From NCBI GenBank assembly GCA_030527715.1, contig JAUNAF010000017.1, positions 1-35,506 of the forward strand: 35,506 nucleotides of DNA. Direction: 5' to 3'. This document shows positions 4,570 through 34,824 of the stretch, piece after piece. The notes under the pieces were generated by a model. The model did no database searches and was not told the DNA's origin. It saw only the letters and a program-made list of their open reading frames with translations. Positions within the stretch are counted from its first letter, which is position 1. Each line of letters begins with the position of its first letter. The position numbers and the translations under genes are program-made. The DNA comes from Eubacteriales bacterium (GTDB lineage: Bacteria > Bacillota > Clostridia > Lachnospirales > Lachnospiraceae).

Positions 4570-5850
4570 TTACTGAATATCTTTGAAATGAAACTCCCTC
4601 TTATGCGATGCATAATCTCCGACAATGTTTCCGCTGCCGAACAGACGGTACTTGTAGGTACACAGTCCTTCCAGCCCCACCGGTCCTCGGGCATGCAGCT
4701 TGCCGGTGCTGATGCCGACCTCTGCTCCGAAGCCGTAGCGGAAACCGTCTGCAAATCTGGTCGAACAGTTCTGATAGACCCCTGCGGAATCCACATAGCT
4801 CATAAACTGCTCAGCCGCCTCGGCATTCTCCGTCAGAATGGCATCTGTGTGATGAGAACCGTAGCGATTGATATGCTCGATCGCCTCCTCAATGCTGTCC
4901 ACGATCTTGATGGAAAGGATCAGATCCAGATATTCTGTCGCAAAATCTGCCTCCTCTGCAGGCACACAGTCTACGATCCTGCGTACATCTTCGGTTCCCC
5001 GCACCTCAACCTCTGCCTTTTTCAGGGCATCGTTCAAAGCAGGCAGAAGTTTTTCTGCGATCTCCCTGTGTACCAGCAGTGTCTCCGTCGCATTGCAGGC
5101 GGCTGTATACTGTGTCTTTGCATCCACGATCACCGGGATGGACTTTGCAATATCCGCATCCTTATCCACATAGATATGACAGATACCGTCAGAATGTCCC
5201 ATCACCGGGATCCTGCTGTGCTCCATGATATAGCGCACAAAGGCATTGGATCCTCTCGGGATCAGAAGATCCACCGATTCATCGCAGGCAAGCAGCTCAT
5301 TGATCTCACTGCGTGCCTCTGCCTGGAACAGACAGTCCTCGGGAAGTCCTCCCTCTGTGGCTGCCTCATGGATCAGGCGGAACAGACAGCGGTTGGTATG
5401 CATCGTCTCACTGCCGCCCTTTAAGATCGCACAGTTTCCGCTCTTGATACAGAGAGACGCGATCTGTACCAGTGCATCCGGACGTGCCTCAAAGATCACG
5501 CCGATCACACCGATCGGACAGCTGATGCGCTCCAGCAGCAGATCTGTATCCAGCTCACGCTTCATGAGCACTTTTCCCAGCGGATCCGGCAGTGAGACCA
5601 GACTTCTGATTCCCTCCACCACGTCCTGCAGCTTGGCTTCGCCAAATTTCAGCCGTTTCAGTACCTGAGGCGGAATCTCGTTTTCCACTGCTGCTCTGAT
5701 ATCCTCTTCATTTGCAGCAAAAATCTCCTCCTTATGCGAGAGCAGTGTCTCAGCGATCAGCTCCAGTGCATGATCGCGCACCCTGGCTGTCGATGCTGCC
5801 ATCTTTGTGCTCTCCAGCTTCATCAATGCTGCCTTTTCCCGAATCGTCAT
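4570..5850 (-). CDS. proA: Glutamate-5-semialdehyde dehydrogenase (gamma-glutamyl phosphate reductase)
   Basis: A 426-residue cytoplasmic enzyme of proline synthesis: NADPH-dependent reduction of L-glutamyl-5-phosphate to glutamate-5-semialdehyde. Seen: ISCPIGVIGVIFEARPDALVQ near residue 108, the GGSE loop near 145, the active-site Cys in TAACNATETLL, and the C-terminal FGAEVGISTGKLHARGPVGL motif. Length is standard. The usual partner proB (glutamate 5-kinase) is not next to it or anywhere in the window, so the operon is split compared with many Bacillota. It follows the TPR-like gene by 64 bases and precedes the DUF1622 gene by 15, in the same orientation. A G-rich site (AAAGGGGG) lies about ten bases before the ATG. 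Confidence 0.96.
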   Translation of the reverse strand: MTIREKAALMKLESTKMAASTARVRDHALELIAETLLSHKEEIFAANEEDIRAAVENEIPPQVLKRLKFGEAKLQDVVEGIRSLVSLPDPLGKVLMKRELDTDLLLERISCPIGVIGVIFEARPDALVQIASLCIKSGNCAILKGGSETMHTNRCLFRLIHEAATEGGLPEDCLFQAEARSEINELLACDESVDLLIPRGSNAFVRYIMEHSRIPVMGHSDGICHIYVDKDADIAKSIPVIVDAKTQYTAACNATETLLVHREIAEKLLPALNDALKKAEVEVRGTEDVRRIVDCVPAEEADFATEYLDLILSIKIVDSIEEAIEHINRYGSHHTDAILTENAEAAEQFMSYVDSAGVYQNCSTRFADGFRYGFGAEVGISTGKLHARGPVGLEGLCTYKYRLFGSGNIVGDYASHKREFHFKDIQ

Positions 5851-6700: not shown

Positions 6701-7846
6701 CTACACCTCCAGCTCACTTTCCCAGCGCAGTCCCGAGGACGGAAAAAAGACTCCGAATCCCAGGTCGCGTATCGTCACCCTGCAGCGGTTTGCAGCTGTA
6801 TAACAGAATTTCAGCTCCAGCCTAGTGGTGCGGGGCGGACGTTTCGGCAGGTCCGGCAGTGCGATACTGTAGCTCGACACGGTGCCGTCCATCATGGATT
6901 TGCTGTAGATGACCAGCTCCTCCTCGTCATCCAGAAGGAGTTCACAGCTTCCCTCCGTCTCATACCAGTTTCTTCCCGCACTTACCAGCAGCTGATTTTT
7001 CTGTCTTCCCTTCACGCTCATCTGCATGCTCAGATTGGTTTCCACCAGATCCTCGCTCCTGTAAAGGAAGGCATTCAGCGCAGAACTGATCCCTGCGCGG
7101 GCCATCGCTGTATAGCAGGCTCCCTTTGTGTAAAGGTTGCTTCCCTGAAATACATGTCGCTTGCGGCAGAGAAAATTCAGGCTCTCATTCATCCAGCCGC
7201 CTTCAAATCCCTCACCGATCAGGTAGACACAGGAAACACTGTCCTTCTGAAACACTCTCTGGATCAGTTCAAAGAACAGCTGATCCTTTCTGCCCTCCTC
7301 ACCTCTGTGATTCTTGCCGTTTTTATGGGACATTCTCGTTTTATCTGCTTCTGTCACAGTTACCAGTGCCGGTCTGGTCTGATAATCCGCCGAAAATACA
7401 TAGGCTCTGATCTCCTGCTCCTCGTATTCGAACAGCACCACCTTATGCTGCCAGAGCACCTTTTTCTGATTCACCATATAGGCAAAAAAGCTCTCACGGT
7501 GTGTCTGCAGAGACAGCCTTCCTATTCCAAGCCGTCCGGCAGCCTCCTGAATCGTCCGGATCCAGGCCGGCTTCATCTCGCGCATCGTGACGCATAAGGT
7601 GATCCCTGCCGGATCTGTCTCTGACTTCAGAAGTCCGAAACATCTCCGAAGATAGTTCACCAGATGCCCCGTAGCCTCCTTACTCTCTCTGCGCACCAGA
7701 GCAAACAGTTCCTTCGGTGTCGGGATCAGGAACTCCTGTCCCTCCCCGGTGGTACTCACGGTCTCCGGCTCCCTGCTCGCCTCGCTGTAAACAGTCAGCT
7801 GCGAAAACGGCTGGTCCAGATCTAAACCGATGATCCTAGTTTTCAT
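6701..7846 (-). CDS. Divergent Hsp70/actin-fold (ASKHA) protein, DUF5716-like
   Basis: A 381-residue protein of unknown function (I associate it with DUF5716, from memory). The layout reads like a degenerate Hsp70: RIIGLDLDQPFSQLTVY (residues 4-20) matches a phosphate-1 hairpin; ITLCVTMREMKPAWIRTIQ then AAGRLGIGRLSL (82-113) matches the 'VPA-F-R-A-AGL' stretch; SCVYLIGEGFEGGWM (205-219) followed by KGACYTAMARAG (241-252) matches the adenosine motif and GAA helix; and residues 300-381 could be a beta substrate-binding domain. The second phosphate loop (normally D-x-G-G-G-T) reads LFEYEEQEIRAYV (138-150) and has lost its glycines, so ATP hydrolysis is doubtful. It starts 16 bases after the solenoid gene and is followed three bases later by the TPR-like gene. 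The fold call is inference by eye. Confidence 0.65.
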   Translation of the reverse strand: MKTRIIGLDLDQPFSQLTVYSEASREPETVSTTGEGQEFLIPTPKELFALVRRESKEATGHLVNYLRRCFGLLKSETDPAGITLCVTMREMKPAWIRTIQEAAGRLGIGRLSLQTHRESFFAYMVNQKKVLWQHKVVLFEYEEQEIRAYVFSADYQTRPALVTVTEADKTRMSHKNGKNHRGEEGRKDQLFFELIQRVFQKDSVSCVYLIGEGFEGGWMNESLNFLCRKRHVFQGSNLYTKGACYTAMARAGISSALNAFLYRSEDLVETNLSMQMSVKGRQKNQLLVSAGRNWYETEGSCELLLDDEEELVIYSKSMMDGTVSSYSIALPDLPKRPPRTTRLELKFCYTAANRCRVTIRDLGFGVFFPSSGLRWESELEV

Positions 7847-7862
7847 GTATTGTCACCCTTTC

Positions 7863-10800
7863 TCAGACGATGTCAAACAGTGTATCCACCAGGTATTCCT
7901 GTCCGATATACTGCTCCTTTGCTTCCTTCCACTCGCTCTCATCTCCGTTGATCTGTGCCTCGATCATGCGATTGATCAGATCATAGCGTCCGGAGGCTCC
8001 GCGTGCGGATCGTCTGGTACAGGTTTCTGTGCGCAGACTTGTCTTTTCTGTTTCTCCGTTGATCTCTATTTCTGTGTACCAGGTAAGCCGATCCTGATAG
8101 TACAGCGTCATCTCCGCCGTAAAAATACCCGAGAGACTGTCGTGCATCGGCTGTGATCTCCAGGCACCTTCCCCGATACGGTAATACAGTGTCACAGACG
8201 CATCCGGATCCGTTCTCTCCTCCAGAATCAGTCGATTCTGCAGATCTGCCAGGGACAAAAGTCTCTTCGGCAGCTTCTGATAGAACGCAAATCTGCGTCC
8301 CTCACGCACCGCTTCACGGAACAGATGCTTTCTCCAATGGATCTCACCGGGTGTCAGCTCCTGCTTTTCTGCGAGCCAGCGCAGGACTGCCATACGGCAG
8401 ATCTTCGGTGCACCTGTGCCTGCAGTTACATAGGCAGTCAGAGAAGCCGCAGCAGATGCCTGTATCGGCCGTTCTCTCACAAAATATTCATATGCCAGCA
8501 GGATCAGATATCCGCGGCAGAGTTTTGCTCTTCCCTGATGTCTCTCGTAGGAGAGGAAGATCTCCTCTGTGTCCTCCATTCCGCTCTGTCTGATCTCTCC
8601 CTGCTTCACTTCCACATGTCCGAGTCCGCCGAGATAAACCAGAAGCGTCAGTATCCTCTCTTCCAGTGCATAGGCATCCGTCTCAAATCCGGCCGCAGCC
8701 TTCCAGACCCGCTTCATATCCTCCAGCGATCCTTCAAAAAATCGGACCAGATACTGCAGAACGATCTCATTGTATGCATTGACTTTCACACAGTGGGCGG
8801 CCAGTGCCAGCAGTTTCTCTTCGTTCTCATTTGCTCTCTGTGAAATTTCCAGAGATGCGATCTGCAGAAGCACCGCAGGTGCGATCCCTTCATAGCCGTA
8901 GCGGTAGATCAGCGTGCTCGCCTTCTGACTCATACTTTCCTGTGCGTAGAGTTCGATCAGCAGACGGTGATGTTCTGTGATCAGCTCCTCATCCGACAGT
9001 CTGAACAGGAAATCCTCCAGCCCCTCTGCCAGACGGTGCTTATCATAAAATGTCAGCAGATAGTTTTCTATGCTTCTGCGATAACTCCTTCTCAGCTGCG
9101 GCAGTGCCAGCAGCTCTGTCAGCAGTGCGGACTCCGACTGCCGGATCTCTCCCTGCTCCAGCATGTTTTCACAGCGGTGAAGCAGTCTTCCCGGTGTTCC
9201 GGTCGTTCCCTGCTCTGCAAGTTTCCTGAAGATCCCACTTTGCAGCAGCGGTCGTATTTCATAAAGTGCAGGATCTGCATACCGCTCCTTCACTGCAGTC
9301 TCCAGAAGAACTGCACAGTTTTCCGTATAACAGTATACCAGCGCGCGGCCATGATGCAGTTTTACTCTCTGCTCTCCCGCAAATGGCGCATGCACCACGA
9401 TGACCTCCTGGATATTATCTGCCGTACAGCGTACCTCACAGGCAAAGAGCAGATCTCCGATCGCCTTTTCCATATCCTCCGTCAGCATGGACTCTGTAAA
9501 AAGTGCATCGCAGAGATCTGAGATGTCACCGTTCATCATTCCGGTGCGCAGCATTTCCTGCACAAACCGCTCCATCTCCGGACGGTAAGCATCACAGGTC
9601 TGCGGATTCTTCTCTTTATTTCGAAGTACATTTGCATAGAGTGCCGCACGATGCTCATGATCCATCGTATTCTGATACCGGAAATACAGCCGTACTGCCT
9701 CAGGCAGCACCTTATCAGGGCAGTCTCTGAGCGTCTCAAGGTAGTACTCATACAGTCCGTTGATACGCACATCTCCCTCGATCGCCAGCTCATACCATTT
9801 TTCATAGGCTGCTTCCCTGCAGTGTCCCTGCACCATCAGCGTAGCCAGTGCGGTCAGCAGATTTTTCGAAGAATACGTTTCCTGGCATCGGCAGAGGATC
9901 CAGAACAGAAGTCCTGAAAAGTTCTGCTCGTGTCCTGCGATCTGTGCTGTCTGTCCGCAGATCTCTCTTGTGAGCAGATCCCTGCGGCAGAAATAGGCCA
10001 GCAGACCGCGCTCAAATGCCTCTGATCTTCTCAGCAGCAGCGGCTCATTTCTGACCAGCAGCGCCGCCTCCAGATACATCAGTTCACTTCTGCAGCCGGC
10101 AGTATACCAGTTTCTGAGCTCTTCCATTCGCTGGCTGTCGTTCGCATGGTTCTGCGGACACAGCCGGAACAGCATCCATCTCAGGAAATGCTCCTCCTGA
10201 TTGCGCAGCTGCAGCTCCTGGATCTCCTTCCAGACCTGCTCATCGTAGGAAGGCTCTTTCCTGCATCTCGCCGTCAGGTACAGATACACCGCTTTCTGAC
10301 GCGGCAGCACCAGCTCCTCTTTCCGCTCCTCGATCTCACCAAGCAGCGCAAGTGCCTCCTTTTCCCGCCCCTGTTCACAGAACAGGGCTGCTTTCAGGAG
10401 CACTGCCTCCGTCTCCGGTCTTTCCTCCTCCTGAAACAGTGCCAGCAGTCTCTGACTGTTCAGGATCCAGTCTCTCTTCGTGCTCTCACCGAGACGGTAT
10501 TCTCTGTAGAGCTTCATCAGCTGCAGCACTGCCTGCTGCTTCTTTTTCCGCTCCGATGCGGCCACAGCCCTCTCCAGCGGATGCTCTGCGGCAGTCTCCA
10601 CCTGCACCGTATATTCCAGCCTGCTGCCTCCTCCGGTGATCGTCACTCTGGCGAAATTACGTCCCGCATGCAGTTTTTCCGGATGGATATAATAACTCAT
10701 ATGGCAGCTGCTGCCTACAAATTCCTCTGTTGTGATCTCCGGACGCTCTATCTCCACAAACTCTGCATCACTTTCCAGATGCAGCAGCGCAAATCCCCAG

Positions 10801-11459
10801 TTTTCCCTGGCTACGACCAGCTCCTCACGGACGGTCTTCTTCTCCGCACGCAGCCTTGCCTCCGCCGTCTGCAGAGACAGCTTCACCTGCGGCTTCAGTC
10901 CTGCGCCGGTCAGAAACTGCTCCAGACTCAGATACGTCAGCTGTGCCTCACAGATCCCCTCGTAGAGCGCGGCATATCCTGTTCCCCAGGCTGAGACGAT
11001 CGCAGGAAATTCTTTCGATACAAACAGCACATAGGCTTTTCCGAAATCCGTCCTTGCCAACTCGGCGAATTCCCCTGCTGACAGCTTCTGTACCTTCTCC
11101 TGCGCAGCGATACCTTCCTCATCCTGCCGCACCAGAAAATGATACGGGATCTGATATTCTCCCTGTGTAGTCACCAGCACAAATGCACCGTCCACAGCCT
11201 CTCCCTGCAGAAGTCCGTGGCTGCTGATACTGCAGCGGATCTCTGTGGAGCTGCCCTCGATCATGACCGGTCGGGCACTCACCCTGGGATTGGTGGAGTA
11301 TAAAAAACCTGAGAGCCTTCCTCCTCCGGATGCCTGTATTGTAAATCTGGTTTTGTACTTTTCATCTGCCGCGATGTCTTCCCGCAGCTCTGTGACAGAA
11401 AACACCGGGATCTTCGGCGCATATGCTATTTTTCCATTCCAAAAATCATTCATCCCCAT
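7863..11459 (-). CDS. Very large solenoid protein with flanking beta domains, DUF5717-like
   Basis: A 1198-residue protein of unknown function (I associate it with DUF5717, from memory). No signal peptide or membrane helices are visible. Three regions are apparent: two beta-sandwich-like parts at about 15-115 (GAFVLVTTQGEYQIPYHFLV) and 215-290; a long alpha-helical repeat solenoid at about 300-1040, rich in Leu/Ala/Glu helices with TPR-like spacing (EKEALALLGEIEERKEELVL); and a C-terminal beta domain at about 1050-1150 (SVTLYYRIGEGAWRSQPM, LSGIFTAEMTLYYQDRLTW). The size and architecture suggest a scaffold. The start is uncertain between ATG 11459 and ATG 11453, since no ideal ribosome site is present. 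It lies 39 bases after nrdR and 16 bases before the Hsp70-like gene. Confidence 0.75.
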   Translation of the reverse strand: MGMNDFWNGKIAYAPKIPVFSVTELREDIAADEKYKTRFTIQASGGGRLSGFLYSTNPRVSARPVMIEGSSTEIRCSISSHGLLQGEAVDGAFVLVTTQGEYQIPYHFLVRQDEEGIAAQEKVQKLSAGEFAELARTDFGKAYVLFVSKEFPAIVSAWGTGYAALYEGICEAQLTYLSLEQFLTGAGLKPQVKLSLQTAEARLRAEKKTVREELVVARENWGFALLHLESDAEFVEIERPEITTEEFVGSSCHMSYYIHPEKLHAGRNFARVTITGGGSRLEYTVQVETAAEHPLERAVAASERKKKQQAVLQLMKLYREYRLGESTKRDWILNSQRLLALFQEEERPETEAVLLKAALFCEQGREKEALALLGEIEERKEELVLPRQKAVYLYLTARCRKEPSYDEQVWKEIQELQLRNQEEHFLRWMLFRLCPQNHANDSQRMEELRNWYTAGCRSELMYLEAALLVRNEPLLLRRSEAFERGLLAYFCRRDLLTREICGQTAQIAGHEQNFSGLLFWILCRCQETYSSKNLLTALATLMVQGHCREAAYEKWYELAIEGDVRINGLYEYYLETLRDCPDKVLPEAVRLYFRYQNTMDHEHRAALYANVLRNKEKNPQTCDAYRPEMERFVQEMLRTGMMNGDISDLCDALFTESMLTEDMEKAIGDLLFACEVRCTADNIQEVIVVHAPFAGEQRVKLHHGRALVYCYTENCAVLLETAVKERYADPALYEIRPLLQSGIFRKLAEQGTTGTPGRLLHRCENMLEQGEIRQSESALLTELLALPQLRRSYRRSIENYLLTFYDKHRLAEGLEDFLFRLSDEELITEHHRLLIELYAQESMSQKASTLIYRYGYEGIAPAVLLQIASLEISQRANENEEKLLALAAHCVKVNAYNEIVLQYLVRFFEGSLEDMKRVWKAAAGFETDAYALEERILTLLVYLGGLGHVEVKQGEIRQSGMEDTEEIFLSYERHQGRAKLCRGYLILLAYEYFVRERPIQASAAASLTAYVTAGTGAPKICRMAVLRWLAEKQELTPGEIHWRKHLFREAVREGRRFAFYQKLPKRLLSLADLQNRLILEERTDPDASVTLYYRIGEGAWRSQPMHDSLSGIFTAEMTLYYQDRLTWYTEIEINGETEKTSLRTETCTRRSARGASGRYDLINRMIEAQINGDESEWKEAKEQYIGQEYLVDTLFDIV

Positions 11460-25341: not shown

Positions 25342-27582
25342 TCATATCTGTTTCACAGCAGGATATACTCTCTGAAATCTCTGATACTGCGCTTCCATCA
25401 CCTTCACTGCCTCCGGATCCGGCAGAAAGCGCTCACATTCTCCGGACTGATCCAGCTCTGTCAGGAAGTTTCCGTACACCTCCCCGGCATTTTTTTCTGC
25501 CTGCGCTGTCACTGCAACGGCGATCGTTGGCATATAATCCGGATTGCGAAAGACCTTCACTTCATGATCCATGGTATCTGCAAAGATCTGACACCACGCC
25601 GGCACTCTGGCTCCTCCGCCGATCAGCGAGAGACTCTCGATCTCTGACACAAAGCCGCCTTTCAGCGAGAAGGCTACGCCCTCCAGACTGGCTCTTGCCA
25701 TGTCCTGTTTCGTGGTCTCTGCCGTGATTCCGATATACGCTCCCCGCGTCTCAGAATCCGACACCGGATAGCGTTCTCCGTTCAGATAAGGCAGAAAGAG
25801 GGTTCCGTGACTTCCCGGAGTGCTGCCCTCCAGCACCTGATTCAGATAGCTGTATTTGTTCTCCTGCTCCTCATCCTTCGTCAGCATTCTGCTGACCCAC
25901 TTATGCACATTTCCCGCATTATAAAACGGTGTCACATTGATATAGGTGTCCGGCGTCACATAGGCGAGATGAAATACGCCGTCCTCCTTCGAGATCTCAT
26001 TGGAGACCTGTGCCACCCAGCCTGAGGTTCCGAGATTGATATTGTATTCTCCGTCCCTGACCAGACCACTCGCGAGCGTTGTCGCGCCGGCATCACCGAT
26101 ACCTGCATACACACGGATCCCGGCCGGCAGACCGCACTCCTTCGCCGCTGTTTCTGTCAGTTCTCCTGCGGTCTCTGACGGATAGCAGAGCCTCGGAAGC
26201 AGGGAGACATCCAATCCCTCCGCTGCCATCCAGGAAGCCGCCCACTCTTTCTTATGAATATCCATCAGACCGCTCGTCGATGCTGTGGTCACATCGGTCA
26301 CAAAGGCTCCGGTCAGGCGGTAGATCACATAATCCTTGGAGCTGAACACTATTTTTTCTGCTGTCTCCAGTTCCTCTTTTCTGTGCTCTCTGACCCAGGC
26401 GAGCTTTGCAAACGGCATGGAACCGTCAAAGTGATTGCCTGTGACACGGCTGATCTCCTCTTCTCCGATCTCTGCAAGGATCCTCTCTGCCTGAACGGAT
26501 GCCCTCGCATCTGAATAGAGGATCGCCTTCGGCTGCCTCTGTGTTTCTCCCGCCCTCGGGATCAGAATCAGATCCTGCATCTGTCCGCTGAAACTGATTC
26601 CTGCAATATCTTCCTCCACGGGATGCTCCTGCAGAAGCTCCCTCACTGACTGACAGAATTCCCGGTACCATTCCAGCGGATCCTGCTCGATTCCCTCATC
26701 CGTATACTCGGTGGTGATCTCACGGCTCTTCTCCGCAGTCACCTCATTCATCCCGTTGACCAGACTCACCTTCACCGCCGTAGTGCCAAGATCCGCTGCC
26801 AGAATATATTCCCGGCGTTTGTCACGGATCGCATTTTTCATTTCTCTGACAAAGTCCGACATGGTCTTCACGGACTGCTTCACCATCTTCACGATCGCCG
26901 TGCCGATGATGACTCCGTGAAATCCGCTGTCGATCAGCTCCTTTGCGCGCTCATTGGTACTGATGCCAAAACCTGCAAATACATAGGTATCCTCCATGGA
27001 CCGGCTGAGTCTGAGGATATCCTTATACTTGTCATTGTTTACCGGAATTCCGGTCACTCCGTCATAGAGCATCTGATAAATGATCGGAAACTCTGACAGG
27101 CAGTTGGCACTGTCGGAGAGCCTGCTGTTCGGACCGATCATTCCGACAACGTCCAGGCCGTATTCCTTCATTTCCTCCTGCAGTTCTCTGCCTGTGGTCT
27201 CCTCAATATCCGGCACAACGATGCCGTCAAAACATTTTTCGCGGGCCAGCTCCAGATATTTTCCCGTATCGAGCAGATCCGCGCGGTAGCCCATCAGCCA
27301 GATCGGAGCATCCAGCGCTTCACGGATCTGTTTCCAGTAATCCAGGCTGCAGACGATCTCTTTCTCGACCTGCGCCATCGCTTCGCGGATGACCGGTCCG
27401 TCTGCCACCGGATCAGCCGCCGGAAATCCGATCTCAAAGATATCCACGCCCGCACGCTTTGCCTCTCTGAGCACTTCAAAAAAACTTTCTTTATCCGGAT
27501 AGCCGGCCACAAAATAGCCGACGATCAGATCCTTCTTTTCACAGATGACTCTTCGATTTCTTTCTGAACAGATTTCTTTCAT
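25342..27582 (-). CDS. Fusion of a TrpA-like TIM barrel and an FGGY-family sugar kinase
   Basis: A 746-residue two-domain protein in one open frame. Residues 1-about 250 resemble tryptophan synthase alpha: E50 in DIFEIGFP and D61 in ADPVADGPV match the catalytic Glu49/Asp60 of Salmonella TrpA, and the phosphate loops GVTG (175-178), GFGIS (204-208) and GTA (227-229) are kept. Residues about 258-746 resemble xylulokinase-type kinases: LAADLGTTAVK (261-271), GQMQDL (334-339), YSDAR, KDYVIYRLTG, catalytic D497 in AGIGDAGA, NLGTSG, and LFLPYLNGERYP. No trpB is present. It ends a sugar importer operon, four bases after the permease. I infer that the kinase phosphorylates an imported sugar and the barrel cleaves or isomerises the phosphate. 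The substrate is unknown. Confidence 0.88.
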   Translation of the reverse strand: MKEICSERNRRVICEKKDLIVGYFVAGYPDKESFFEVLREAKRAGVDIFEIGFPAADPVADGPVIREAMAQVEKEIVCSLDYWKQIREALDAPIWLMGYRADLLDTGKYLELAREKCFDGIVVPDIEETTGRELQEEMKEYGLDVVGMIGPNSRLSDSANCLSEFPIIYQMLYDGVTGIPVNNDKYKDILRLSRSMEDTYVFAGFGISTNERAKELIDSGFHGVIIGTAIVKMVKQSVKTMSDFVREMKNAIRDKRREYILAADLGTTAVKVSLVNGMNEVTAEKSREITTEYTDEGIEQDPLEWYREFCQSVRELLQEHPVEEDIAGISFSGQMQDLILIPRAGETQRQPKAILYSDARASVQAERILAEIGEEEISRVTGNHFDGSMPFAKLAWVREHRKEELETAEKIVFSSKDYVIYRLTGAFVTDVTTASTSGLMDIHKKEWAASWMAAEGLDVSLLPRLCYPSETAGELTETAAKECGLPAGIRVYAGIGDAGATTLASGLVRDGEYNINLGTSGWVAQVSNEISKEDGVFHLAYVTPDTYINVTPFYNAGNVHKWVSRMLTKDEEQENKYSYLNQVLEGSTPGSHGTLFLPYLNGERYPVSDSETRGAYIGITAETTKQDMARASLEGVAFSLKGGFVSEIESLSLIGGGARVPAWCQIFADTMDHEVKVFRNPDYMPTIAVAVTAQAEKNAGEVYGNFLTELDQSGECERFLPDPEAVKVMEAQYQRFQRVYPAVKQI

Positions 27583-27585
27583 CCC

Positions 27586-28539
27586 TTACTCCTTCTTTCC
27601 GGCAGTCACTCTCTGCACGATCACGGCACCGATGATGATCACACCGGTCAGAATATCCTGCAGATAGGACGGCACCTGCATGATCGTCAGTCCGTTTGCG
27701 AGAATTCCCAGAATCGCTGCTCCCACAAAGGTTCCCCAGATATTCGGAACACCTTCTCTGGACACGGTCCTTCCCAGAAAGACTGCCGCATAGGAATTCA
27801 TAAAGTAGCCGTCTCCTCCGGTCGGATGTGCCGAACCGAGTCTGGACGCCAGCATCACGCCGGTCAGTGCAGATAAGGCTCCGCAGATCGCAAATGCCAG
27901 ATTTTTATTTACTTTGACATTGATTCCTGAGATCTCGGAGGATTTCACATTGCCTCCGATCGCATAGAGTTTTCTTCCGAATACGGTGTGTCTCATGACA
28001 AACCAGAAAATCAGGATCAGCACCAGCATGATCAGACTCAGCAGCGGGATGCCAAGGATCCTTTTGGAGCCGAGCCAGGTAAATCCGTCCGGAATATTTT
28101 CAAAAATCGTTGCGCCTCCGGACAGCCAGAAAACGACTCCGCTCAGGATCGTACTCATCGCCAGTGTTGTGATAAATGACAGCACACGGAATTTTGTGAC
28201 GATCCATCCGTTCAGAAATCCGATGCAGAAACACAGCAGGATCGGCAGGAGAAAGCAGAGTACCAGCGGTACGCCCGCGACTGCCAGTTTCGCTGCCGTC
28301 ACGCCGCCAAGGCTGGCCAGTGCTCCGACGGAAAGATCAAATTCCTCCACACTCATCACCAGTGTGGCTCCGATAGCGATCACGACCAGCAGCGAGATCT
28401 GTCTGGTTACATTGATCAGATTGGGCACCGTGAAAAAGGCAGCCGGACGCAGAATACTGAATACCAAAATGATCACCAACCCGGCCAGGATGGTTCCGTA
28501 CGCCTTCAGCGCATTTGTTACAGATTTCATAGATTTCAT
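27586..28539 (-). CDS. Ribose-type sugar ABC transporter permease
   Basis: A 317-residue membrane protein of the RbsC/XylH/AraH type with about eight to ten helices. Seen: MSVEEFDLSVGALASLGG, the family motif that follows the second or third helix; GWIVTKFRVLSFITTLAM; and HTVFGRKLYAIGGN with EISGINV, the cytoplasmic loop that contacts the ATPase. I used ATG 28539 rather than one eight codons upstream, because AGGAGG lies eight bases before it and it follows the ATPase stop by two bases. The operon has a single permease gene, so a homodimer is expected. Confidence 0.92.
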   Translation of the reverse strand: MKSMKSVTNALKAYGTILAGLVIILVFSILRPAAFFTVPNLINVTRQISLLVVIAIGATLVMSVEEFDLSVGALASLGGVTAAKLAVAGVPLVLCFLLPILLCFCIGFLNGWIVTKFRVLSFITTLAMSTILSGVVFWLSGGATIFENIPDGFTWLGSKRILGIPLLSLIMLVLILIFWFVMRHTVFGRKLYAIGGNVKSSEISGINVKVNKNLAFAICGALSALTGVMLASRLGSAHPTGGDGYFMNSYAAVFLGRTVSREGVPNIWGTFVGAAILGILANGLTIMQVPSYLQDILTGVIIIGAVIVQRVTAGKKE

Positions 28540-28541
28540 TG

Positions 28542-30029
28542 TTATGCCTCCTGATAACAGCATCGAAGCACCTGCTCAGATGTCAGATTTTTGTTTTCCA
28601 TTACAGCCCCGGATGTTCCGTGTGAGATCACCTGCACACGGTCGGATACTTCCAGGATCTCCTGCAGATCCGAGGATACATACAGCACCGTACAGCCCTC
28701 GTCCGCACGGCGGCGAAGCAGTCTGTGTATCTCCTGCCTTGTCTTTACATCCACTGCCTGTGTCGGCTCGTCACACAGAAAGATCTCCGGATCTGACTGC
28801 AGTGCCTTTGCAAATACGACTTTCTGCTGATTTCCTCCCGACAGCTCTCCCACATACTGCTCCGGGCCATTGCACTTGATACCCAGCAGTGAAATACTCT
28901 CTTTTGCCCCGTTCTTTTCCTTCCGTCCGCGAATGATTCCTTTTCCGGAATACTTTCCGAGCACGGACAGCGTGATATTTTTCCGGATATTGAACGGCAT
29001 GACCAGAGCCATCCCGCGGCGGTCCTCACAGATCATGACCATGCGATTGCGGATGGAATCTGCCGGGGAACTCTTTTCGATCACTTGCTTCCCGATTCGG
29101 ATGGTTCCTTCTTTCTTTGCGCGATATCCGTACAGTGTTTCCAGAAACTCTGTGCGGCCGCTTCCTCCCAGTCCGAAGATTCCGAGGATCTCTCCCCGGT
29201 GCGCTGTCAGACTGATATCTTTCACTCTTCCGTCCTCCGAAACCAGATGTTCCACAGAAAGCAGCACCTCTCCGGATGCGCTGCGCCCGTTCTCCTCCTG
29301 TGTACTGACCCAGTTGTCTGTCATGCGCCGGATCAGATCCTCCTTTGTGATCTCTGCAGTCGCAAAGGTACCTGAAATACTGCCGTTTTTCATGATCGTC
29401 ACGCGGTCTGTCAGCGTCATGATCTCGTCCATACGATGAGACACATAGAGGATCGACACTCCCTGTTCCTTCAGCCTGCGGATCATTCTGAACAGGATCT
29501 CCGTCTCACGGTCTGTCAGAGATGCCGTCGGCTCATCCAGGATCAGCAGCCGGCACTCTGTCATCAGTGCATGAAGGATGCAGAGCATGGTCTGCTCCGG
29601 GGGTGAAAGACGTGCCGCAGGCTGACGGAAATCCATCTCTATTCCCCATTTTTCAGCCAGTGCATCCACTCTCGCGTACATCTTTTTCCAGTCGATCTTT
29701 CCATAAGGTCTGACCTCATAGGCCTGTCCGAGATAGCAGTTCTCATATCCGGAAAAGGTCGGTACCAGCTGACGATCCTGATGAATGACATGGATCCCCA
29801 GACCCTGGCTCTGATGCGGATTTTCAATATGGATCTCCTCGCCGTTCCAGAGGATGCTGCCCGCATCCAGGGAATACACTCCGGTAAGGATCTTGATCAG
29901 TGTGGACTTTCCGGCACCGTTTTCTCCGACCAGACCGAGGATCTCTCCCTTCTCGATCTCCAGACTGACCTCTTTTAAGGCATAAACGCCGTGAAACTGT
30001 TTCTCAATATTCTTTGTACTCAGAAGCAT
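28542..30029 (-). CDS. Ribose-type sugar ABC transporter ATPase (two nucleotide-binding domains)
   Basis: A 495-residue tandem ATPase of the RbsA/MglA/XylG type. Domain 1 (1-about 235): Walker A GLVGENGAGKSTL and Walker B LLILDEPTASL; its signature reads LSPPEQ, a drift from the LSxxQ common in this family. Domain 2 (about 250-495): degenerate Walker A GLGGSGRTE, normal for RbsA-like second domains, with signature ELSGGNQQK and Walker B IFLCDEPTQAVD. GGGAG precedes the ATG. It overlaps no gene but lies downstream of a strong hairpin that separates it from the binding-protein gene, so its expression is probably lower than that of the binding protein. Confidence 0.95.
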   Translation of the reverse strand: MLLSTKNIEKQFHGVYALKEVSLEIEKGEILGLVGENGAGKSTLIKILTGVYSLDAGSILWNGEEIHIENPHQSQGLGIHVIHQDRQLVPTFSGYENCYLGQAYEVRPYGKIDWKKMYARVDALAEKWGIEMDFRQPAARLSPPEQTMLCILHALMTECRLLILDEPTASLTDRETEILFRMIRRLKEQGVSILYVSHRMDEIMTLTDRVTIMKNGSISGTFATAEITKEDLIRRMTDNWVSTQEENGRSASGEVLLSVEHLVSEDGRVKDISLTAHRGEILGIFGLGGSGRTEFLETLYGYRAKKEGTIRIGKQVIEKSSPADSIRNRMVMICEDRRGMALVMPFNIRKNITLSVLGKYSGKGIIRGRKEKNGAKESISLLGIKCNGPEQYVGELSGGNQQKVVFAKALQSDPEIFLCDEPTQAVDVKTRQEIHRLLRRRADEGCTVLYVSSDLQEILEVSDRVQVISHGTSGAVMENKNLTSEQVLRCCYQEA

Positions 30030-30086
30030 ATTTTTCTCCCAGTTTTTCTTCCAAATACAGGCTTTTGGCCTGCTGTATCGTATAAA

Positions 30087-30155
30087 GCGGACCTTCGCGA
30101 TCCGCGTTCAAGTCAAGCTCGCTTTGACGCACCGCCTGCAGAGGCGGGCGTCTTC
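30087..30155. repeat. Cluster of short GC-rich hairpins between the binding-protein and ATPase genes
   Basis: Successive small inverted repeats: GCGGA (30087) with TCCGC (to 30105); TCAAGC with GCTTTGA (about 30112-30126); CCGCCT-GCAG-AGGCGG (30132-30147); and CGTC with GACG just after. They precede the terminator at 30171-30203 on the plus-strand map and follow it in transcription. Confidence 0.55.
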
Positions 30156-30170
30156 CCGACGGAGATAAAA

Positions 30171-30203
30171 TATGGTCCGGTCTGCACCGCGCAGCCGGAC
30201 CAT
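30171..30203 (-). terminator. Strong attenuating hairpin after the sugar-binding-protein gene
   Basis: ATGGTCCGG and CCGGACCAT pair perfectly, extended by CTGC/GCAG around a 5-base loop, and are followed on the minus strand by ATTTTAT. It is 20 bases after the stop codon. This arrangement commonly sets the binding protein above the rest of the operon. Confidence 0.75.
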
Positions 30204-30222
30204 GTTTTCTTCTTCCTGTGTG

Positions 30223-31176
30223 TTATTCGGCTTTGATCAGTTCACCCGGTGCATATTTCTCTCCGGTCTCGATTTCATTTCCGGAGAGCAGGGTCACGAT
30301 ATCGCTGATAACGATATCACACATGCCGTCAAAGTTCTGGGACATCGTCGCCTTCAGATTGGAATCACTGTTGATCAGCTCCACTGCCTGGCTGTTTCCA
30401 TCCACACCGGTCACGATCACTTCATCACGTCCTGCCTCCTGCAGTGCCTGTGTAACACCGATCGCCGGCTCATCCCATGCACAGAATACTGCTGTCACGG
30501 AATCCTTCTCCGCATTTGCAAGCAGCAGACTCTCCATGATCTCTCTGGAACTCTCGATCGGTCCTGCCTCTACATTGACCTCCTGCTCGGTGATCAGTGT
30601 AATATTCGGATAATTGCCGATCAGATCATCAAAGGCCTCACTTCTCTTTACCACACCCGGATGCGGGCGGTAGGTCAGCGCGATCACGGTACCTTCCTCA
30701 TTCATCAGATCTTCAAAGAGATACTTTGCCATCGCCTCTCCCATGGCATAATTGTCAGAGGTTGCATTCACCTGCATGCCCTCGATATATCCGCTGTCCA
30801 CTCCGAATACCGGAATGTTTGCCTCAAATGCCTCGTTAAGCTGTGTCTTTACCTGATTCGGATCTGCACTGACCAGGATCATGGCATCCGCATTTGTGGT
30901 CACCACATCCTCGATTCTGCTCGCCAGCTCGCCGAAATCACTCTTTGTATCTACTACATTTACCTCGGCTCCGGCTCCTTCCAGGCCTGAAGTCAGTGTG
31001 TCTACCATCTGTTTTGTCGTCACAGAGCTCAGATACGGTGTCAGAATAGAAACCTTCTTTCCACTGATCTGTGCGTCCGCACTGTCCTCTGCGAATGCTG
31101 TCATACCCATGCCGCAGACCGCCAGGGATCCAGCCATGAAGAGTGATGTGAAACCTGCAAGTACCTTCTTATTCAT
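30223..31176 (-). CDS. Sugar-binding protein of a ribose-type ABC transporter
   Basis: A 317-residue exported protein of the Peripla_BP_4/RbsB type. Residues 1-about 29 are a signal sequence. The mature part begins a two-lobe sugar-binding fold: KVSILTPYLSS, SDFGELASRIEDVVTTNADAMILVSADPNQV, PVFGVDSGY, AVFCAWDEPAIGVTQAL and VTGVDGN are the typical strand-helix segments. The only N-terminal Cys is in LAVC, a poor lipobox, whereas TAFA-ED is a good signal peptidase I site, so it may not be a standard lipoprotein. Start chosen at ATG 31176: GGGAGG lies eight bases upstream and an upstream ATG at 31242 would bury the operator. It is the first gene of the operon. The sugar is not identifiable. Confidence 0.93.
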   Translation of the reverse strand: MNKKVLAGFTSLFMAGSLAVCGMGMTAFAEDSADAQISGKKVSILTPYLSSVTTKQMVDTLTSGLEGAGAEVNVVDTKSDFGELASRIEDVVTTNADAMILVSADPNQVKTQLNEAFEANIPVFGVDSGYIEGMQVNATSDNYAMGEAMAKYLFEDLMNEEGTVIALTYRPHPGVVKRSEAFDDLIGNYPNITLITEQEVNVEAGPIESSREIMESLLLANAEKDSVTAVFCAWDEPAIGVTQALQEAGRDEVIVTGVDGNSQAVELINSDSNLKATMSQNFDGMCDIVISDIVTLLSGNEIETGEKYAPGELIKAE

Positions 31177-31203: not shown

Positions 31204-31225
31204 TTTAAAGCGTTGACGCTTTAAA
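31204..31225 (-). promoter_or_regulatory. Operator-like inverted repeat before the sugar operon
   Basis: Arms TTTAAAGCGT and ACGCTTTAAA, ten perfect pairs with a 2-base centre, lie 27 bases before the ATG at 31176. A possible -10 box TAAAAT (minus strand, 31232-31237) is just upstream, which puts the repeat at the transcription start, a repressor position. It only loosely resembles a CcpA cre site; the regulator is not in the window. Confidence 0.65.
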
Positions 31226-33351: not shown

Positions 33352-34824
33352 TCAGAATCCAAAGTCCTGATAATCTTCTCTGTCAAAACGGTGATAGGTG
33401 ATATGACCGCCTTCTTCATGCAGACAGTAGAGATAGTCATCCGGTTTTCCATCTGCGAAATACAATACCTCGTCAAATTCGCCATGGTCCATCTTTTTGC
33501 AGACTACCTGGTCTGAGTATCTGTGGAAAACAGCCTCTGCCTTTTCCAGGCTGCATCCATGTGCCGCAGTCTGTGACACCAGCTCCTTCAGAAATTCAGA
33601 TGCTTCCACATGCTCATGAACATATTTCACTCCTTCTGCAGGAACAAGTACGGAAAATCTCTCTCCTGCTGCGGAGATCTCCAGCGCACCAAGAGTTTCT
33701 TTTTCACAGCCTGCGAATGCTTCCAGTACCTTCTGCATTTCTGCTGCGGACACCTGCATCTGAAGAAGATGATTCAGGGTCGCCAGCGGGTAGAACAGAC
33801 GCAGTGCGCCGTAATCATATCCCAGCTTGATTTCAGACTCCTTCACACTGTCTACCAGATTTCTGTACAGTCTGCGCACACCTGCTTCTCTCTGCTGCAG
33901 CGGGCAGATCTTCACCTGTTTTTTCAGCTCTGTGACCAGTTCCAGTGTCGGCGGCTTGGTGCCGATCGTCATGACTGCTCCGGCAGAGGCTGCCATACAT
34001 AGACACACCGTCTCCTCGGCTGACAGCTTTTTCTCCCATGCAAGGCTGAGTGCTGCGACCATGGCATCCCCGGCACCGACCGTAGAATGTGCCTTTACCG
34101 AGAGTGCCGGGCAGCGCACCTCGTAACCATCCAGAAGGAACAGTGCACCTTCTTTTCCCATCGAAACTGCAGTATTGCGAATGCCCTTTGCACGAAGTGC
34201 TTCCACTGCTGCGCACAATTCTGCCTCAGAAGCATTCTCTGAAAGTCCTGCATACTCTTCCAGCTCTACATGGTTCGGTTTGATCATATCCGGTCCCGCT
34301 GTCAGTGCATTTCGAAACAGTTCCCCATCTGCATCCAGCAGAACCGCAGCTCCCTTTGCCTTTACTCTTCGGATGATCTGTGCATAGATATCCTTCGGCA
34401 CACCTTTGGGAATACTGCCGGATAATACAAACAGTGTTCCTTCTTCTGCGTACCCGTCGATTTTCTCCATCAGCTGTGCAAGCTGCTCTTCTGTGATCAC
34501 ACTGCCCGGCTCGTTCAGTTCCGTCACTGTACCGTCATTCTCAAAGACCTTCATATTTGTGCGGGTCTCGCCGTCGATCTCAACAAAATCATTTGCAATG
34601 CCAAGTTCTTTCAATGTATCTGTGATCACTTTGCCTGCACTTCCACCCAGAAAGCCTGTGGCAGTGGATGTACCGCCGAGCGCTGCAATGGTTTTGGAAA
34701 CATTGATTCCCTTGCCGCCGGCATCCTTCTCCACTTTTCGGATACGATTCAGACCGCCATGCACCATCTCTTCGATTTCCACAGTCTTATCGATTGCTGG
34801 ATTCATACATACCGTTACAATCAT
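33352..34824 (-). CDS. fruK: 1-phosphofructokinase (PfkB family) fused to a DUF3877-like C-terminal domain
   Basis: A 490-residue protein, about 180 longer than a normal FruK. Residues 1-305 are a PfkB sugar kinase: MIVTVCMNPAIDKTV, AGGKGINVSK (35-44), TRTNMKVFE, LSGSIPKGVP, KPNHVELEEY, and TVGAGDAMVA with catalytic D253. MNPAID and KPN-ELEE point to 1-phosphofructokinase or tagatose-6-phosphate kinase. Residues about 315-490 are a separate domain (RRLYRNLVDSVKESEIKLGY, GVKYVHEHVEASEFL, YHRFDREDYQDF at the end) that I recognise, from memory, as DUF3877. No PTS fructose gene or DeoR-type regulator is adjacent, unlike typical fru operons. GGGAG precedes the ATG. It follows the Big_2 gene by 37 bases and could be co-transcribed with it. 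Confidence 0.85.
   Translation of the reverse strand: MIVTVCMNPAIDKTVEIEEMVHGGLNRIRKVEKDAGGKGINVSKTIAALGGTSTATGFLGGSAGKVITDTLKELGIANDFVEIDGETRTNMKVFENDGTVTELNEPGSVITEEQLAQLMEKIDGYAEEGTLFVLSGSIPKGVPKDIYAQIIRRVKAKGAAVLLDADGELFRNALTAGPDMIKPNHVELEEYAGLSENASEAELCAAVEALRAKGIRNTAVSMGKEGALFLLDGYEVRCPALSVKAHSTVGAGDAMVAALSLAWEKKLSAEETVCLCMAASAGAVMTIGTKPPTLELVTELKKQVKICPLQQREAGVRRLYRNLVDSVKESEIKLGYDYGALRLFYPLATLNHLLQMQVSAAEMQKVLEAFAGCEKETLGALEISAAGERFSVLVPAEGVKYVHEHVEASEFLKELVSQTAAHGCSLEKAEAVFHRYSDQVVCKKMDHGEFDEVLYFADGKPDDYLYCLHEEGGHITYHRFDREDYQDFGF

Follow-up and report, generated by a model that had tools for sequence, protein, structure and literature searches.

The window analysed here is a 35,506-nucleotide stretch of contig JAUNAF010000017.1 (assembly GCA_030527715.1) from a bacterium of the Lachnospiraceae. 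It carries a minus-strand operon in which the genes of a sugar-type ATP-binding cassette (ABC) importer are followed by a single open reading frame (ORF) joining a barrel of the tryptophan synthase alpha-subunit (TrpA) family to an FGGY kinase. A first-pass annotation, made from the letters of the window, had proposed that the kinase makes a sugar phosphate and that the barrel cleaves it. The features of the operon are listed below with the basis of each assignment.

25342..27582, minus strand: putative fused TrpA-like lyase/FGGY kinase of 746 amino acids (aa) (profile matches; same fusion in locus L047; AlphaFold model)
26827..27582, minus strand: TrpA-like barrel, aa 1-252, with Glu50, Asp61, Tyr169, Thr177, Gly178, Phe205, Gly206, Gly227 and Thr228 (Pfam Trp_syntA and residue survey)
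25342..26814, minus strand: FGGY kinase part, aa 257-746, with SGQMQD at aa 332 and Asp497 (profile and residue comparison)
27586..28563, minus strand: single RbsC-type permease (BPD_transp_2)
28542..30029, minus strand: RbsA-type two-domain ATPase (ABC_tran, two stretches)
30173..30202, minus strand: hairpin between the binding-protein and ATPase genes (by eye)
30223..31176, minus strand: RbsB-type substrate-binding protein with signal peptide; longer ORF to 31242 (Peripla_BP_4)
31204..31225, no strand assigned: operator-like inverted repeat ahead of the binding-protein gene, its two perfectly matched 9-bp arms flanking TCAA (TTTAAAGCG-TCAA-CGCTTTAAA; by eye)

The fused frame at 25342-27582 runs without interruption and lies directly downstream of the single-permease importer on the same strand, as the first-pass annotation had described. 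Pfam placed Trp_syntA (PF00290) at aa 15-251 of the fusion (133.7 bits, cut-off 27), FGGY_N at aa 259-503 and FGGY_C at aa 514-680, and the barrel passed the NCBIfam trpA equivalog TIGR00262 (126.3 against a cut-off of 102.35). The AlphaFold model had a mean predicted local distance difference test (pLDDT) score of 88.1 and a predicted template modelling (pTM) score of 0.69; when the whole fusion was used in a fold search, the match list was filled by kinases and the barrel was not represented. The importer fits the CUT2 (RbsABC) type, with a Peripla_BP_4 protein, a two-domain ATPase and a BPD_transp_2 permease all present. The likely start of the binding-protein gene is the ATG at 31176, which by eye has a GGAGG ahead of it, and the inverted repeat upstream has the look of a possible LacI operator. 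No trpB is present in the operon, in agreement with the annotation. A separate, true trpB-trpA pair was found on another contig (C29) of the same genome (G000), making the fusion the second TrpA homologue of that genome, and the idea that the barrel is the working TrpA of this organism was rejected for the window on account of that pair.

Within the family (250 genomes) and genus (8 genomes) samples, both of which include the source genome, the other barrel matches listed were of canonical type and 27-34% identical. The phylum sample (398 genomes) held a single close relative (44%), in genome G461, and the class sample (291 genomes) a further one, in G788; among 25 genomes of the order of G461, no barrel relative besides its own was found. 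A two-pattern scan of a collection of species genomes returned 17 loci: 11 orthologues (L047-L057, 35-57% identical), which include the G788 and G461 contigs as L049 and L051, and six more distant loci (L058-L063, 23-33% identical), which were set aside as trpA-type. In one of the latter, L063, the TrpA-family gene (7815-8546, 211.9 bits) is immediately followed by a glycosyltransferase gene. A tblastn search against plasmids gave no site with 80% coverage of the fusion, and a viral scan with a single sequence gave no lead.

The window and the 11 orthologues constitute 12 core loci, all of which show the order binding protein, ATPase, permease, barrel, kinase; because these loci were found via the barrel, its presence there follows from the construction of the search. 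Their carriers include Bacillota, Chloroflexota (L052, L055) and Spirochaetota (L056). Two loci have a fused gene, the window and L047 of Clostridium vitabionis, in which the barrel is 57% and the kinase 53% identical to that of the window. The remaining 10, among them L050 of Sinanaerobacter, encode barrel and kinase separately, and in L051 and L052 the kinase gene continues past the contig end. The search for further fusions and for adjacent unfused pairs beside an importer, which the first-pass annotation had suggested, thus produced one fusion and 10 pairs. The annotation had also raised the possibility that the joint is an artefact of assembly, which was rejected since the same fusion recurs in the same operon of C. 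vitabionis, recorded as an isolate. Searches with profiles of the kinase and the binding protein added five loci (L096, L097, L116, L099 in G456 and L117 in G478). A TrpA homologue stands beside the cassette in four of them, divergent in L096, L097 and L116 and a canonical trpA in L099. The core gene order is kept in L096 and L097, L116 has the same five genes in a different order, and on the short contig of L117 the binding-protein gene is truncated and there is no barrel. The kinase profile matched in 53 genomes, and of the eight regions examined (from five genomes) three had the cassette and five had no TrpA homologue. Matches to the binding-protein profile were found in 10 genomes, and the loci of seven were examined (G000, G461, G402, G528, G456, G444 and G478); the matches in G369, G454 and G634 and another one in G444 were left aside.

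In a tree with 31 other sequences, the 12 core barrels formed a clade of their own (branch support 100/98.6). When the three divergent barrels were added and the distant rows L058-L061 and L063 left out, 15 barrels separated from 28 canonical TrpA sequences (100/99.6), with long branches that leave the placement of the three unsure. Residues Glu50, Asp61, Tyr169, Thr177 and Phe205 of the window are the equivalents of TrpA Glu49, Asp60, Tyr175, Thr183 and Phe212, and we assume for them the catalytic or structural roles given to these residues in TrpA. Glu50 is found in all 12 core barrels and in 15 of 15 with the divergent ones. Asp61 is found in 11 of 12 and 14 of 15, with Glu in L056; canonical TrpA proteins of the source family have Glu at this position in 26 of 26 cases. 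Tyr169, Phe205 and the phosphate glycines Gly178, Gly206 and Gly227 are kept in all 15 barrels and Thr177 in 14 (Ser in L053). The alignments therefore bear out the catalytic pair and phosphate-binding loops that had been read from the window, and the same is true of Asp497 in the kinase. Residues on the indole side of the barrels remain hydrophobic (Y23, M97, V122, P124, F/M148).

The barrel thus shares with TrpA the fold family, the Glu/Asp pair, the equivalents of Tyr175, Thr183 and Phe212, the phosphate loops and the passing of both profiles. It differs in being only about 30% identical, in its separate clade, in being fused to or encoded beside a kinase, and in occurring in genomes without trpB1. 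In YxN and PDxP, motifs that we take to be TrpB contacts, the N and the P are present in 26 of 26 canonical TrpA sequences and were each lost in 11 of the 12 core barrels (N is kept in L056, P in L057), and the stretch LYxGxTG, taken as loop 6, is rewritten. Loop 6 is described in PMC9100643 as controlling the stand-alone activity of maize TrpA/BX1. The alignment of the 12 core barrels shows no invariant Lys or His, so the barrel would be neither a Schiff-base aldolase nor an obvious metal-dependent one. As one alternative, the barrel might epimerize or isomerize a phosphorylated ketose, with Glu50 and Asp61 serving as acid and base, so that the product would be a central-metabolic pentulose or hexulose phosphate. 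The TrpA barrel and ribulose-phosphate 3-epimerase belong to the same phosphate-binding barrel superfamily, weak matches to triose-phosphate isomerase and HisA-type profiles were recorded, and an operon with two enzymes would suit such a role. We nevertheless consider it improbable, because the kept residues are the set used in TrpA catalysis, the trpA equivalog is passed, and the linkage to tryptophan genes described below would have no explanation.

This linkage was observed in two lineages. In Flexilinea (L055), a T-box with a UGG specifier, trpB and trpA precede the cassette, from which they are separated by a 201-bp gap in which no forward terminator-like site was found. The gap (5033-5233, between trpA and the binding-protein gene) contains a frameshifted C-terminal remnant of a SorC-type regulator (E 1e-13 against the SorC of L052), suggesting that the T-box-trpBA unit now occupies the former site of the regulator of the cassette. 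In L099, trpD-C-F-B-A is followed after 132 bp by genes for the binding protein, ATPase, permease and kinase, the cluster itself being without a TrpA-like gene; such a gene is present in L097, which is closely related to it (79% identity in the binding protein and 51% in the kinase). A lysine riboswitch (6793-6979, 118.4 bits) also lies about 2 kb past the end of the L099 cassette, ahead of an unrelated ORF. At a roughly estimated 1/3000 per locus, the double adjacency to trp genes would appear to be beyond chance. A tandem duplication of trpA was considered as its origin and judged unlikely, since the L055 barrel groups with that of L052 rather than with L055's own trpA and the L099 cluster holds a canonical trpA only.

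T-boxes with UGG were found before trpBA, trpB or TrpB2 (the last described in PMC1854888) in six carriers without trpC, three of which are also without a true trpA. The L055 element (100.5 bits) has UGG in the specifier loop, a position read from the alignment, and stands before trpB-trpA. In the source genome (L065), a T-box at 9011-9338 with a Trp (UGG) specifier precedes an isolated trpB-trpA at 9398-11411 and scores 73.0 bits, below the Rfam gathering score of 93. The others lie before trpBA in G942 (78.7 bits, also below the gathering score), trpB in G947 (114.7 bits) and TrpB2 in G943 (104.0 bits) and G950 (74.6 bits, below the gathering score, with UGG found by pattern only).

The biosynthetic gene trpC was missing in 12 of the 15 carrier genomes tested, which did not include G444 and G478, and was detected in 14 of 14 control genomes; it was not found in the source genome. 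A true trpA (about 290-300 bits) is present in G000, G942, G944, G946 and G948, and in G456 next to the cassette. In G788, G943, G947, G949, G950 and G461 the TrpA-like gene was the only one found, and G945 gave a second TrpA-type match of 91 bits. The genomes with trpB1 are G000, G942, G944, G946, G947 and G948, and those with TrpB2-type proteins only (NCBIfam TrpB-like, 661-686 bits) are G943, G461, G949 and G950. In the family sample, where a genome was counted as having trpA if the window's barrel matched it with an E-value of 1e-15 or lower, 172 genomes have both trpA and trpC, and five besides the source genome have trpA without trpC (5/177). Of the six carriers with a true trpA, three have no trpC, compared with these 5/177 (Fisher test, p 0.001, or 0.012 once the source genome is removed).

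The constant company of kinase, TrpA-type lyase and importer points to import followed by phosphorylation and cleavage. To this extent the earlier proposal stands: the two enzymes are paired throughout the core loci (fused in two, neighbours in the same order in 10, beside the same importer), and a TrpA-type retro-aldol reaction on the kinase product fits the conserved residues. Its choice of a sugar as substrate is no longer the best reading. Instead, the linkage to trp genes, the T-boxes for Trp and the lack of trpC suggest indole-3-glycerol phosphate as the phosphorylated compound and a salvage of indole for TrpB. Tryptophan salvage from indole-3-glycerol is accordingly the reading we favor, with a confidence that is evenly balanced and rests on the trp evidence. 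The term sugar cleavage then probably misnames the substrate, and the cargo may be a tryptophan precursor and not an ordinary sugar. The binding protein, ATPase and permease would import a polyhydroxylated molecule, most likely indole-3-glycerol, the dephosphorylated form of indole-3-glycerol phosphate, and the FGGY kinase would regenerate the latter by adding phosphate to the terminal hydroxyl. The barrel, freed from TrpB, would use Glu50 and Asp61 for a retro-aldol cleavage to indole and glyceraldehyde 3-phosphate, and trpBA, TrpB or TrpB2 elsewhere in the genome would join indole to serine to make tryptophan. The identity of the substrate, the activity, its direction and the uptake of indole by TrpB are all what we infer from gene content and conserved residues. 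Anthranilate-deoxyribulose was rejected as the cargo because it needs TrpC, which is absent in those 12 of 15 carriers.

TrpB-free cleavage of indole-3-glycerol phosphate, as predicted here, would resemble the reaction of the indole-3-glycerol-phosphate lyases (IGL), namely plant BX1/IGL and the stand-alone TrpA of C. glutamicum covered in PMC9100643. In contrast to those enzymes, the cassette is predicted to receive its substrate from outside via importer and kinase and not from trpC. A search of the literature found no pathway pairing a TrpA-type lyase with an FGGY kinase. With odds just short of even, these loci would represent an undescribed route in which trpC-less bacteria import free indole-3-glycerol, an FGGY kinase rephosphorylates it and a TrpB-independent relative of TrpA frees the indole, with a bifunctional enzyme in the window and in C. 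vitabionis.

A number of observations weigh against salvage. The trp linkage concerns two of 17 loci, several on short contigs, and is not seen at the window. Half of the six UGG T-boxes score below the Rfam gathering score, UGG-AC is missing from two T-boxes (L120 7522; L123), the surroundings of TrpB2 in G461 and G949 showed no T-box, and a scan limited to the gathering threshold detected none before the cassette at the window or any other scanned locus except L055. No TrpB was found in G788 and G945. Several carrier genomes are incomplete metagenome-assembled genomes, and tryptophan auxotrophy is common, 68 of 250 family genomes being without trpC. The Fisher test given above mixes taxa and ignores descent. 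The literature search found no report of free indole-3-glycerol as a nutrient, nor of its kinase or uptake. The proteins that would handle the cargo also have a sugar-like character. The kinase part has the FGGY_N and FGGY_C domains and catalytic Asp of FGGY carbohydrate kinases, and its nearest kin are xylulokinases, the closest known being XylB and C. violaceum 3hz6. The solved structures nearest to the binding protein are ribose-binding proteins, 3l49 and 4wt7, the last holding allitol (PMC10318746). An intact SorC-type regulator adjoins the cassette in eight of the 12 core loci, and the one run against Pfam, from L048, has a sugar-binding domain. The window differs from those eight in having no adjoining SorC gene, and in L056 pieces of a decayed SorC-type regulator lie upstream of the binding-protein gene (600-1343).

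The sugar-type binding protein, the kinship of the kinase and the SorC-type regulators thus still favor a sugar. In the corresponding scheme, the importer would bring in a ketose or similar compound, the kinase would phosphorylate it at its far end, and the barrel would split it into a small carbonyl compound, for instance dihydroxyacetone, and glyceraldehyde 3-phosphate; the linkages to trp genes would be coincidental or historical. No further enzyme would be required if the products enter glycolysis, and the carriers in which no TrpB or no Trp T-box was found would pose no difficulty. We regard this as possible but rather unlikely. TrpA chemistry depends on an enamine-like leaving group, the lack of an invariant Lys or His leaves no class I and no obvious class II aldolase site, and the arrangements at L055 and L099 and the trpC pattern would be unexplained. 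The kinase falls short of the xylulokinase equivalog TIGR01312 (317.4 against 380.25) and has SGQMQD where E. coli XylB has AGQMHG (kinase alignment of 11 rows, the 114-aa L051 kinase, cut by the contig end, being left out). Neighbors of the binding protein in a fold search were sugar-type and not decisive. Binding proteins of the other 11 core loci are 48-73% identical to that of the window, so one ligand class is likely across the core loci.

The aromatic residues of the barrel raise a further alternative. W83, W95 and Y173 occur in all 12 core barrels and Y28 in all but L057 (F), and the four are absent from the 26 canonical TrpA sequences compared. They could signal a different aryl- or heteroaryl-glycerol as the substrate of this kinase/lyase scheme, with another leaving group and any activity on indole being incidental, and trpB1 was not found in six of the 12 core carriers. 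The trp operon linkage, the Trp T-boxes and the canonical TrpA beside the cassette in L099 speak against this, and we think it quite improbable.

Two known arrangements resemble the cassette. In the Lsr system for autoinducer-2, a single operon likewise encodes a SorC-type regulator, an RbsABC-type importer, an FGGY kinase and a barrel enzyme. The cassette differs in its single permease and in having a TrpA-type barrel in place of LsrF, and its kinase does not reach the LsrK cut-off (115.2 against 528). On a Rhizobium plasmid (L064 7407-9704), a gene for BtpA/SgcQ, presumably also a barrel protein, directly precedes an FGGY kinase gene, but the enzyme family and importer type are different and the regulator is of the DeoR/GlpR type. 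Elsewhere in the window, a single 490-aa frame at 33352-34824 on the minus strand fuses a PfkB-type sugar kinase to DUF3877 (Pfam).

Matches to the trpA profile that are encoded next to sugar importers may be misread, and even with a sugar as cargo the coupling of a TrpA-type lyase to an FGGY kinase would be absent from the literature found. If salvage from indole-3-glycerol is correct, the barrel would be a natural TrpB-independent indole-releasing enzyme and the cassette an additional entry point to the tryptophan pathway. It would also account for trpC-less genomes that have retained trpBA or TrpB2 downstream of Trp T-boxes, and indole-3-glycerol would be a traded metabolite in anaerobic communities.

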